From: Streptomyces deccanensis
GTDB lineage: Bacteria > Actinomycetota > Actinomycetes > Streptomycetales > Streptomycetaceae
Length of the DNA: 64,000 nucleotides
NCBI RefSeq assembly: GCF_022385335.1
Contig: NZ_CP092431.1
Coordinates: forward strand, 5,084,001-5,148,000
Direction of reading: 5' to 3'
Made by a program: the position numbers and the translations under genes
In this document: piece by piece, positions 2,325 to 21,056 of the stretch
Layout: every line of letters starts with the position of its first letter
Numbering within the stretch: position 1 is the first letter of the stretch
The notes under the pieces: generated by a model
The model's database searches: none
Told to the model about the DNA's origin: nothing
What the model saw: the letters and a program-made list of their open reading frames with translations, nothing else

Positions 2325-2459
2325 TCAGTCCGCCATCGGCAGATAGACCCGGTTCCCCGCCTCCGCGAACTCCTTGGACTTCTGGGCCATGCCCGCCTCG
2401 ATCTCGGCCCGGGAGCCGCCGTGTTCGCGGCGGATGTCCTGGGAGATCTTCATCGAACT
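2325..2459 (-). pseudogene. thiC: thiC 3'-end remnant (left attachment site of the island)
   Basis: Read on the minus strand this encodes SMKISQ..., ...[19 protein letters not shown] and a stop, clearly the last 40 or so codons of ThiC. The intact gene at 19212 ends ...[19 protein letters not shown]. Homology stops abruptly after TCTTCATCGA (about 2450-2459), which is also where the intact gene continues into the FCS codons. The remnant sits 70 bp from the serine-integrase start and next to a terminator beside core chromosome. The simplest reading is that it is the original chromosomal thiC 3' end, displaced by site-specific integration. It has no promoter or start of its own and is not expected to be translated. 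Confidence 0.85.
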
Positions 2460-2530
2460 GAGCATTACTTAACCCCACACATGCGCTACGGTCGTTCCAC
2501 CAGTCCGTTCCGTGGACCGAGGGGGACCCA

Positions 2531-4099
2531 GTGGGCAAGCGCGAAGAGGTCATCAGCAGGTTGCGAGGCGTACCTGAGGGACTGCCGTCCGTCGAGGAAG
2601 TCCGCGCCATGGTGGCCGCCGATCCCAACCTCAAGTGCGTCGTCTGCTACGCACGGATCTCGTTCGACGGCCGAGTGAAGGACGCCCACGGCATCGAGGA
2701 CCAGCACCGGGACATGACCGACGCCGCCCGCAGGTTCGGGTGGTTAGTCGTCTACCGCTACACGGACAACGACAAGAGCGCCAGCAAGGAGAGCGTCGTC
2801 CGCGACGACTTCGAGCAGCTACTCAACGACCTCACGGCCGGTACGACTCCCGAGGGGTATCCCGTCCACGGCGTCATGGCCGTGAACGACGACCGTCTGT
2901 ACCGACGCCCGAGTGACTGGGAGCGGTACCTGAAGGCGTTCACCTCACACGAGGACCGCGTCTACCACGACTCGAACGGCAAGCAAGATCTCTACGCGGA
3001 AGGGTTCGAGATCAAGGGGCTCGTCGGAGTCGCCGTGTCTCTCGGCGAGACGAGGAAGAAGCAGCGTCGCAGCAGGAACAGTCACCGCAGCCGGGCGATC
3101 CGAGGGCAGTCTGTAGCCGCATGGCGCCCCTTCGGATGGGACGACGACAAGGAGACGTTGCGTCCGCAGGAGGCGGAGGCGATCCGGACGGCCGTGCACG
3201 ACGTGATCGCGGGTGCCTCGATCTCGGAGATCACGCGTCGGTGGAAGGAAGCCGAGTTCATCACGAGTCGCGGCAACCCCTTCCAGTACCAGACGGTCAA
3301 GCAGGTCCTGATGAACGCGCGTCTCTGTGGCTATCGGGAGATCAAGGGCGAGATCGTCCGCGACGGCGACGACCAGCCCATCGTGGGCGAGTGGGAAGCG
3401 ATCATCACGCCGAAGGAATGGTTCGCTGTCACGGCCAAGATCAGGGAGCGGGGCGGCGGAACCGGGATGCCGCGCGGTGGGCTGGTCCACAAGTACCTGC
3501 TGACCGGCATTCTCAGGTGCGGCAACGTGCTGGAGGACGGCACGGTCTGCAACAACAAGATGATCGGCATCAAGGCGAACGACTGGCTCAAGTACCGGCA
3601 CGCGTACATGTGCAAGAAGACCGTGGACGGGGGCTGCAACAAGACGTACAAGCGAGGCGACAAGACCGACGAGAGCATTGAAAGGCTGGTCGTCGCCAAG
3701 CTTGTGAGGGATGCCGAGAGCAAGGCTCAGGACGTGCCGGACTGGGACAAGGCCGATGCGTTGGAGCGAGCGATCAAGAGCCGGAAAGAGCTGGAGCGTC
3801 GTTGGCACGACGACGAGGACACCGACATCGACGACGAGGCGTTCTTCCGCAACCTCCCCGTCTTGGAACGACGGATCAAGGAATTGCGGGCCGACCAGGC
3901 CAAGCACGCGGCCTTGCAGGCGGAGGCCGAGGAAGCCCGCGAGGACATCGCGAAGTCGTGGGAGTCGAAGACGCTCACGCAGAAACGCGATGCGATCAAG
4001 AAGGTCTTGAGCGCGATCGTCGCCGTGCCGGGTGGGAAGGGCAACAAGACCTTTGATCCCGAACTCCTCAGGCCCGTGTGGAGGACTTCCGGCGAGTGA
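2531..4099 (+). CDS. Large serine recombinase (integrase)
   Basis: Site-specific integrase and excision recombinase of the large serine (phiC31-like) class, expected to act on attachment sites in thiC. The N-terminal resolvase domain has YARIS with catalytic Ser44, followed by conserved Arg and Asp motifs (for example NDDRLYRR). The middle recombinase domain (about residues 190-330) leads to a zinc-ribbon with cysteines in ILRCG, TVCNNK, YMCKK and GGCNK, then a coiled coil (about 410-480). The length of 522 aa is normal for the family. The GTG start follows GAGGGGGACC. The gene lies 70 bp from the thiC remnant, as expected for an integrase beside its own site. Codon 72 is the rare leucine codon TTA (2744-2746), so translation may need the bldA tRNA. 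Confidence 0.93.
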   Translation: MGKREEVISRLRGVPEGLPSVEEVRAMVAADPNLKCVVCYARISFDGRVKDAHGIEDQHRDMTDAARRFGWLVVYRYTDNDKSASKESVVRDDFEQLLNDLTAGTTPEGYPVHGVMAVNDDRLYRRPSDWERYLKAFTSHEDRVYHDSNGKQDLYAEGFEIKGLVGVAVSLGETRKKQRRSRNSHRSRAIRGQSVAAWRPFGWDDDKETLRPQEAEAIRTAVHDVIAGASISEITRRWKEAEFITSRGNPFQYQTVKQVLMNARLCGYREIKGEIVRDGDDQPIVGEWEAIITPKEWFAVTAKIRERGGGTGMPRGGLVHKYLLTGILRCGNVLEDGTVCNNKMIGIKANDWLKYRHAYMCKKTVDGGCNKTYKRGDKTDESIERLVVAKLVRDAESKAQDVPDWDKADALERAIKSRKELERRWHDDEDTDIDDEAFFRNLPVLERRIKELRADQAKHAALQAEAEEAREDIAKSWESKTLTQKRDAIKKVLSAIVAVPGGKGNKTFDPELLRPVWRTSGE

Positions 4100-4244
4100 G
4101 TCGAAGTCCAAGGATCTCCCCCACGCTGCGTAGCTGATCATCGGAGAGTGGGGGAGATTCGCGCAGGTGCCGCTCTATCCATGCGTCGACGGCCGCAGCT
4201 TCCTGGCGCTCCGCGTCGGCGCTCGTCGGCCGAGGGCTACTCAG
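4068..4244 (-). CDS. Possible small AICE protein with CTG start
   Basis: A 58-codon frame overlaps the rep stop and, in antisense, the last 30 bases of the integrase. It reads protein-like: ...AAAVDAWIERHLRESPPLSD and then QLRSVGEILGLRL. The PPL(S/T)xxQ pattern resembles short tails of AICE hypothetical proteins I have seen, but no family can be named. The only upstream start is CTG at 4244-4242, embedded in CTGAGTAG where rep terminates; an ATGAGTAG overlap would be the normal arrangement. Either the start is CTG or the start codon has been lost. The 11-bp hairpin at 4114-4158 lies inside it, which argues against strong expression. Confidence 0.35.
   Translation of the reverse strand: MSSPRPTSADAERQEAAAVDAWIERHLRESPPLSDDQLRSVGEILGLRLTRRKSSTRA
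4114..4158. terminator. Hairpin between convergent integrase and rep
   Basis: ATCTCCCCCAC (4114-4124) and GTGGGGGAGAT (4148-4158) form a perfect 11-bp stem with a 23-base loop, directly after the integrase stop and facing the rep 3' end. A bidirectional terminator is likely. Confidence 0.65.
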
Positions 4245-19098: not shown

Positions 19099-19145
19099 CT
19101 TCCTCCATAGGGCATGGGGCACGAGATGCCCCTGTGAGGAAGGCG

Positions 19146-19200
19146 TGCACGGTCCGCACCCCCAACGAGGCTTGATGCTTCTTGGAAACGCGGACCGTGC
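19146..19200. terminator. thiC: Hairpin downstream of intact thiC
   Basis: GCACGGTCCGC (19146-19156) and GCGGACCGTGC (19190-19200) pair perfectly across a 33-base loop, 12 bases after the thiC stop (minus strand) and 48 bases after the small membrane-protein stop. Probably a terminator serving thiC in its present, island-adjacent context. Confidence 0.6.
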
Positions 19201-19211
19201 GCGGGTGAGTG

Positions 19212-21056
19212 TTAGTCCGCGATCGGCAGGTACACCCTGTTCCCGGCAGCCGCGAACTCCTTCGACTTCTGGAGCATCCCCTCCGCGACCTCCTCGGGAG
19301 ACGCCCCCTCGGCCGCCGCACCCCCGAACCGCTCTGTGATGCTTTGGCTAATCTTCATCGAGCAGAACTTCGGCCCGCACATGGAGCAGAAGTGAGCCGT
19401 CTTGGCCGGCTCGGCCGGGAGCGTCTCGTCGTGGAACTCGCGGGCCGTGTCGGGGTCGAGGGCCAGGTTGAACTGGTCCTCCCAGCGGAACTCGAAGCGG
19501 GCGTCCGACAGCGCGTCGTCCCACTCCTGTGCGCCCGGGTGTCCCTTGGCGATGTCCGCCGCATGGGCCGCGATCTTGTAGGTGATGACGCCGGTCTTCA
19601 CGTCGTCACGGTTGGGCAGTCCCAAGTGCTCCTTGGGGGTGACGTAGCAGAGCATGGCCGTGCCCCACCATGCGATCATCGCGGCGCCTATGCCCGAGGT
19701 GATGTGGTCGTACGCCGGAGCGACGTCCGTCGTCAGCGGGCCGAGCGTATAGAACGGAGCCTCATCGCAGATCTCCTGCTGCAGGTCGATGTTCTCCTTG
19801 ATCTTGTGCATCGGGACATGTCCCGGGCCCTCGATCATGGTCTGTACGTGGAAACGCTTCGCGATCCGGTTGAGCTCCCCGAGCGTGCGCAACTCCGCGA
19901 ACTGCGCCTCGTCGTTGGCGTCCGCGATGGAGCCTGGCCGCAGGCCGTCACCGAGGGAGTAGGTGACGTCGTAGGCGGCGAGGATCTCGCACAGTTCCTC
20001 GAAGTTCTCGTAGAGGAACGACTCCTTGTGATGGGCGAGGCACCAGGCCGCCATGATCGAGCCACCGCGCGAGACGATGCCGGTCTTGCGGTTCGCGGTG
20101 AGCGGCACGTACGCGAGGCGCACGCCCGCGTGGACCGTCATGTAGTCCACACCTTGTTCGGCCTGCTCGATGACGGTGTCCTTGTAGATCTCCCAGGTGA
20201 GCTCCTCGGCCTTGCCGTCGACCTTCTCGAGCGCCTGGTACAGGGGCACCGTGCCGATGGGGACGGGGGAGTTGCGCAGCACCCATTCGCGGGTGGTGTG
20301 GATGTTCCGGCCGGTGGACAGGTCCATGACCGTGTCGGCGCCCCAGCGGGTCGCCCAGGTCATCTTCTCGACCTCCTCCTCGATGGAAGAGGTGACCGCG
20401 GAGTTCCCGATGTTGGCGTTGACCTTCACCAGGAACCGCTTGCCGATGATCATCGGCTCGATCTCGGGGTGATTGACGTTCGCGGGCAGTACGGCCCGGC
20501 CCGCGGCGATCTCCTCACGGACGACCTCAGGTGAAACGTTCTCCCGAACGGCCACGTACTCCATCTCGGGCGTGATCTCCCCGCGTCGTGCGTACGCGAG
20601 TTGGGTCACGGCCTGGCCGTCGCGGCTCCGGCGGGGCTGGCGCGGCCGCCCCGGGAACACCGCGTCGAGGTTGCGCAGCCCGCCACGCGGCGAGGTGTGC
20701 TTGATCCCGTCGTCCTCCGGGCGCACGGGGCGGCCCGCGTACTCCTCGGTGTCCCCCCTGGCGACGATCCAGTTCTCGCGCAGGGGGAGCAGCCCCCGCC
20801 TGACGTCGGTCTCCGCGGTCGGATCGGTGTACGGGCCGGAGGTGTCGTACAGGGTGACGGACTGTCCGTTGGTGAGGTGCACCTGGCGGACCGGCACTCG
20901 CACATCGGGGCGTGAGCCCTCGATGTACGCCTTGTGCCAGCCGATGGACTTCCCGGCCTCCAGGGAAGGTTCACCCTGGCTGTTGTCGCCCTCGGACGCG
21001 ACGGAGGCCCCGTCCGTCTGGCTGGAGGCAGGCGTGCGTGTGTCCTCGATGGTCAT
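19212..21056 (-). CDS. thiC: Phosphomethylpyrimidine synthase ThiC
   Basis: Radical-SAM enzyme converting aminoimidazole ribotide to hydroxymethylpyrimidine phosphate in thiamine biosynthesis, cytoplasmic. The family is unmistakable: [61 protein letters not shown] and the C-terminal cluster [14 protein letters not shown] that binds the [4Fe-4S] centre. Length 614 aa is normal. The ATG follows a TPP riboswitch. Integration at FCSMKIS means the last 45 or so codons may be supplied by the island rather than the original chromosome; the reading frame is intact, so the gene should remain functional. Confidence 0.97.

Follow-up and report, generated by a model that had tools for sequence, protein, structure and literature searches.

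Mobile elements with a large serine integrase probably insert within thiC of Streptomyces and replace the end of the gene

The window analysed here, 64,000 nucleotides of Streptomyces deccanensis contig NZ_CP092431.1 (a 10.1-Mb genome in a single contig, whose close relatives by name are Streptomyces), holds an island with a large serine integrase between the intact thiamine gene thiC and a second thiC 3' end (Table 1). We propose, with a probability of about 0.92, that mobile elements with such an integrase insert inside thiC and replace the end of the gene with a copy of their own. The attachment site of the element (attP) would recombine with a site inside thiC (attB), just after the CSMCGPKFC codons, and would lead into a complete element-borne thiC 3' end of ~48 codons, a stop codon and a hairpin. 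Integration would sever the host's gene end and leave it as a remnant beside the integrase, and thiC would gain an element-derived C-terminus and stay whole. After later loss of the integrase the new end would remain, and a later element could displace it again. We infer that it is this integrase that performs the reaction and that the resulting protein works.

Besides intact thiC, the window contains the two further thiC 3' ends described in the original prediction, a complete one on the left and a middle one that is real but short, and the integrase starts ~70 bp from the left one, likewise as described. The left tail consists of thiC codons ending in VYLPMAD-stop, read from 2456 to 2325 on the minus strand, and 79 nt of it form a repeat (D1) with 82% identity to positions 19214-19292. 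A ThiC search of the whole genome returned two matches only, the intact gene and the left tail (E 1.5e-7), the middle relic being too short to appear in it. This relic reads ...AASGNRVYLPLME-stop in thiC orientation, is 93% identical over 42 bp to the thiC tail of a sister genome (E <= 1e-8), and lacks the ~100 bp of tail nearer the attachment core. In most surveyed loci with enough sequence, the region downstream of thiC holds relatives of the genes at 1354-2232 and 7-1170, in line with the claim that the left remnant adjoins core chromosome. The terminator predicted beside it was recovered in part: the hairpin there is weaker (z -1.9 with dinucleotide shuffles) than the strong one after the intact tail (z -5.6), and no T-run terminator was found in 2150-2560. 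No hairpin follows the middle relic (z +1.0). An element at a tRNA site was rejected because ARAGORN found no tRNA gene in the window.

To assign the two complete tails, we compared them with 150 thiC loci from 148 Streptomyces genomes (150 genomes of the genus were drawn, minus G073, which gave no match, and G037; G025 has three loci, L155, L175 and L219, two E-tailed and one N-tailed). Tails fell into 98 of type N (SMKIS-x-DIRR and similar), 51 of type E (SMKIS-x-SITE[RQ]F and similar) and one other, and element-free thiC sites, as anticipated in the original prediction, exist among relatives. The left tail of the window is of type N and intact thiC ends in type E. Compared with the nearest N-tailed thiC (L047 of G139), the left tail is 0.913 and the intact tail 0.66 identical, and mean identities are 0.823 and 0.651 to all 98 N tails, and 0.669 and 0.779 to the 50 other E tails. 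The two tails are only 0.644 identical to each other after the core, and the thiC body is host-like up to the core. Because by identity the left tail is N-like and the intact tail E-like, the left tail is, at the level of sequence, the host's original thiC end and the present end of the gene is a supplied one, which bears out the predicted displacement of the host end by island sequence.

The breakpoint shows in other loci of the survey too. In the 22 of 51 E loci that have an N relative with >93% body identity, identity to these relatives is 0.95 in the body, still 0.947 over the 60 nt that precede the core, and 0.674 in the tail; for 74 N/N control pairs, the respective values are 0.955, 0.957 and 0.905. 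Displaced and intact tails were further compared with the nearest surveyed relative in 20 elements (20 of the 22 Streptomyces genomes described below; L080 and L082 were left out). The displaced tail was closer in 16 of them, namely in all 14 whose nearest relative is N-tailed and in two of the six whose nearest relative is E-tailed.

The integrase itself belongs to a family found at thiC throughout. Four relatives of 80-90% identity, besides the window's own, were present in the 150 genomes, and a scan of named genomes added 18 integrase loci of 73-91%; as G106 and S. anandii (L077) are one record, this gives 22 Streptomyces genomes with a close integrase. Two further integrases (70% and 73%) came from other genera of the family (61 family genomes, E <= 1e-100), making 24 genomes at 70-91%. 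In all 24, a displaced thiC tail lies beside the integrase and an intact thiC is present, both on one contig in 22 and on separate contigs in L075 and L079; the displaced tail of L080 is truncated. The distance from tail to tail ranges from ~1.8 kb (L080, with little beyond the integrase) to 27.7 kb (G201). Among more distant relatives are annotated phage serine integrases (26-32% identity), and phage and plasmid collections yielded only relatives below 60% (191 phage and 16 plasmid records). The resolvase domain PF00239 was not reported in the window integrase at E <= 0.001; a YARIS stretch, a motif of such integrases, was spotted by eye.

Every supplied tail (24/24) continues in frame to a YLP-containing end, and the hairpin after the supplied stop has a mean z of -2.9 over 22 sites with mononucleotide shuffles (three above -1, one of them positive). 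Distances between supplied tails follow those between integrases (Mantel r 0.69; partial 0.64 given the thiC body; n=22) and not those of their own thiC bodies (partial 0.04; n=22). The supplied tail, judged by its co-divergence with the integrase and not with the thiC body, belongs to the element; tail ownership, breakpoint and co-divergence are all established by sequence comparison.

At 23 of the 24 element sites (L080 was left out), the junctions have in common a block around Ser-Met-Lys, the codons that come just after the CSMCGPKFC motif. The highest dyad scores fall on the Ser codon (attP 12.7, mean 5.6; attB 12.4, mean 6.1), with a second peak at the AA of ATGAAG (attP 9.4, attB 12.1). 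At 21 of 23 sites (17 TC, 4 AG), both junctions have the same first two Ser-codon bases, with a Fisher P of 0.0017 that treats related sites as independent and is only indicative. These data fit a crossover at the first two bases of the Ser codon, which may be the exchanged pair. The AA of ATGAAG had been our first choice and was ranked second, behind the Ser codon, by the dyad scan.

Some observations weigh against gene-end replacement by these elements. In four of the six elements with an E-tailed nearest relative (the window, L066, L072 and L075), it is the intact tail that is closer. For the window, the nearest thiC of any kind is the E-tailed L033, and the order of the identities is reversed (left tail 0.667, intact tail 0.847), which in sequence terms is as a gene-end swap leads one to expect with such a relative. 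Cases in which the intact tail is closer are thus expected by the model, but those E-tailed relatives are not neutral empty sites. Moreover, the Ser codon differs between the junctions in two of 23 sites (L078 and L082). Finally, integrases of 41-45% identity (L008-L013 and L283) have no thiC tail within ~1.5 kb on each side; the thiC site is therefore specific to the close integrase family.

Most E tails occur without an integrase: for 46 of the 51 E loci, there is no close integrase in the genome. Since the thiC tails that could be read in other genera of the class (20 tails; 22 such genomes matched) are all N-like, type E looks derived, and the deep-branching Streptomyces loci L225-L227, which carry E-like tails, may have been its source. 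On a tree built from the thiC body without the tail, E tails are scattered, yet also clustered. The foremost competing explanation is that E and N are two old alleles, inherited or exchanged by homologous recombination, so that the elements merely acquired E and the 46 integrase-less loci are not scars. Tail and body distances correlate within E (0.526) nearly as they do within N (0.589), which speaks against all E tails being recent scars; E and N cluster on the body tree (35 changes, compared with 42.7-43.9 for shuffled labels); the E-like tails of L225-L227 are as old alleles would have it; and in seven E loci, the flanking gene lies <=150 bp away and leaves no room for an element. However, 27 of the 35 E/N changes are forced by well supported branches. 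The flanking gene is at least 400 bp off or out of reach in 35 of 46 E loci versus 45 of 98 N loci (P 0.0007), the reach being uneven (20 kb in 20 E loci, 1.5-3 kb in all other loci). The AT-rich attP half-site fades: its GC content is 41% in 22 element tails, 53% in the 46 E tails without an integrase and 59% in N tails.

Relics of replaced ends also count against old alleles. We looked for a relic N tail between thiC and the flanking gene in 30 of the 46 integrase-less E loci and in 50 of the 98 N loci, and called a relic when it scored above every one of 80 antisense controls; nine of the 46 have no flanking gene in reach. A relic N tail is kept in five of the 30 (G146, G122, G111, G124 and G110), and a relic second tail was found in two of the 50 N loci (G141 and G025); a second tail is likewise present in G031, an N locus with no flanking gene in reach. 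On balance, we regard old alleles as a sole explanation as possible, with the odds leaning against it, and consider that many E tails are probably old and inherited. For gene-end replacement, we lean slightly towards a wider role in which the thiC 3' end would be a genus-wide platform for the insertion, stacking and decay of serine-integrase elements and of small cassettes whose integrase was lost or never present; every swap would leave a foreign C-terminus on a core vitamin B1 enzyme, and about one third of Streptomyces thiC genes would carry an element-derived one.

Several further thiC-like sequences were noted in the survey. Downstream of G108 thiC, a 16-nt match to the ancestral tail end was spotted by eye, but it did not exceed the controls of the relic scan and was not used. 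The insert between thiC and flank of the same genome (L261, 244-1734) holds one 496-aa open reading frame (ORF), by eye of TerD/VWA type. In G101, matches resembling thiC tails lie 1.3 Mb away from thiC, and G142 has one on another contig.

That the extra tails stem from tandem duplication or homologous recombination at thiC, with an unrelated island between the copies, is strongly disfavoured for integrase-bearing loci and highly improbable overall: the low identity of the window's two tails after a host-like body, the presence of the same integrase at this position in all 24 genomes, and a supplied tail that follows the integrase all argue against it, even though two N-tailed loci (L115 of G141 and L189 of G031) lack a close integrase and carry another N tail, very similar to the first, ~0.9 kb downstream, and duplication or conversion is conceivable there. 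The ~0.8-0.9 kb inserts between these paired tails are possibly passenger cassettes, duplications or products of gene conversion; the G031 insert resembles, by eye, a ribbon-helix-helix (RHH) antitoxin/PIN toxin pair.

Replacement may also occur repeatedly at one site. The displaced tail of L079 is itself of type E (0.903 identity to the nearest relative), and this locus is, from its tails, a swap upon a swap in which an E-type tail was displaced by a further element. The displaced tail of L064 is E-like as well because the tails of its clade are E-like. In the window, the conserved part of the element ends near 12884 and is followed by 6.3 kb of cargo, split by the middle relic. The original prediction read this as two stacked insertions; its gene-end swap is supported, and the stacking is plausible, at nearly even odds. 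In such a history, which would add to the replacement model and not compete with it, a first element would span ~2.5-15.9 kb with the relic as what remains of its tail, and a second, which lost its integrase end, would have left 16.0-19.36 kb. The relic, a single short one, has the orientation of thiC, ends at the thiC stop and lies past the conserved element end, with a cargo block on either side; of 151 tails, that of the sister genome G108 matches it best (39/42), and L079 offers a precedent for second-round swaps. Against this, three runner-up tails from unrelated loci reach 38/42, an att core is missing from the relic, no remnant of a second integrase came to light, and neither cargo block occurred by itself at thiC in any of the 150 genomes, where matches outside the window's own genome were only short and partial. 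In addition, ~135 bp beside the relic (15719-15861) recur at 74-84% identity in six other genomes away from thiC and look like a fragment of some repeated sequence, and a captured-thiC relic or a decayed duplication would look the same. Two insertions are the simplest history for the window, a choice that we hold at slightly under even chances.

Gene-end swapping as such is already known, from e14 at icd and from bacA islands with three gene ends. The recombinase of e14 is a tyrosine recombinase, whereas the thiC family has a serine integrase. In the part of PMC6379469 considered, the e14 prophage of Escherichia coli cuts off the 3' end of icd and supplies a replacement, the old end becoming a pseudogene fragment; insertion within a core metabolic gene, end replacement and retention of the old end are shared with thiC. 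The window likewise has a displaced host end at the far side of the element and an in-frame replacement end, and mechanistically its element is a gene-end-replacing integration as for e14/icd. In contrast to icd, the supplied thiC end is far more diverged (0.644 in the window), and replaced ends occur in about one third of the surveyed loci of the genus. PAISt and its relatives insert at the 3' end of bacA in plant-pathogenic Streptomyces, where three end copies divide the island into modules and relatives contain integrase remnants (PMC4057263, in part). Genus, insertion at a gene 3' end and three end copies are thus common to both, but the same portion of that source gives PAISt a tyrosine recombinase, an 8-bp palindromic core and a length of hundreds of kb. 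The thiC elements measure 1.8-28 kb and use a serine integrase.

Staphylococcal cassette chromosome (SCC) elements use serine recombinases at the 3' end of the conserved gene rlmH and include composites and recombinase-less cassettes. Their site is rlmH and not thiC, the gene end replaced at thiC is far longer, and the window integrase matches the CcrB model weakly (21.2 bits versus a cut-off of 900), below the level of an SCC recombinase. Among actinomycete integrative and conjugative elements (AICEs), 19 of 144 have serine recombinases, some of them in protein-coding genes, according to the main text of PMC3218068, in which thiC is absent. The window element resembles AICEs as described there in being a small actinomycete element with an integrase and an FtsK-type transfer protein, and differs in lacking a replication protein recognised by Pfam or NCBIfam; it is a likely rather than an established AICE. 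In limited literature searches, no title or abstract start among the open-access papers listed presented thiC as an integration site, and searching PMC10083194 (main text) by term had no hits; the thiC/serine-integrase case and its frequency appear to be new.

A mobile-element family would thus repeatedly rewrite the C-terminus of a conserved metabolic enzyme of vitamin B1 synthesis, leaving a legible record in the form of supplied ends, displaced originals, decayed relics and second-round swaps. Because part of ThiC is encoded there, attB is conserved, and the loci together provide matched natural attB/attP pairs of a single serine-integrase family, which may serve actinomycete integration tools. 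They also caution that the end of a core gene can carry the history of a mobile element and not that of its host.

Table 1 Features of the window around thiC and the inserted element.
Feature	Position	Strand	Remarks
292-aa chromosome-flank gene	1354..2232	+	relatives downstream of thiC at element-free sites
thiC 3' end read as displaced original (N-type), Ser codon to stop	2325..2456	-	
Left junction, Ser-Met codons, element meets host	2451..2456	-	probable crossover here or at next two bases
Large serine integrase, 522 aa	2531..4099	+	PF07508 57.5 bits; zinc ribbon just under cut-off
FtsK/SpoIIIE-type transfer protein	6094..7401	-	PF01580 88.5 bits; TraB model just 28 bits of 800
GntR/UTRA regulator	7911..8690	+	
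NsdA-family regulator	10492..11868	+	NF053720 394 bits, cut-off 75
Phosphotransferase-family (APH fold) protein	11872..12786	-	kept in several of the elements
Conserved right end of element	12747..12884	.	in L070 and L064, thiC tail ~85-90 bp further on
Cargo block 1, ORFs 12932-13720 and 13723-15480	12932..15480	-	no Pfam match
Relic of third thiC 3' end, last ~14 codons and stop, ~42 bp	15902..15946	-	
Cargo block 2, NB-ARC/TPR protein, 886 aa	16065..18725	-	
Strong RNA hairpins 3' of supplied stop codon	19090..19211	-	
Intact thiC, 614 aa	19212..21056	-	ThiC Pfam 627 bits
thiC 3' end read as element-supplied (E-type), Ser codon to stop	19212..19361	-	
Right junction, Ser-Met codons	19356..19361	-	
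thiC host body up to CSMCGPKFC motif	19362..21056	-	
TPP riboswitch-like leader of thiC	21049..21205	-	RF00059 43.5 bits, below gathering score 54.3

Regarding the other genes of the element, ORFs 4376-5074 and 5025-5741 had no Pfam or NCBIfam match, and no replication initiator (RepSA, RepAM or Prim-Pol) was recognised by these models. The two overlap on the minus strand, and tblastn coordinates give the same frame offset in seven relatives (L062/L077, which are one genome, L068-L071 and L083). Their combined size is about that of a RepSA protein, and the region 4376-5741 raises the question of a candidate split Rep protein or a programmed frameshift. In the cargo, a defence-system library matched only with a generic TPR model, on the NB-ARC/TPR protein. 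An exact 22-bp tandem repeat in two copies (15441-15484) lies at the start of the 585-aa ORF.

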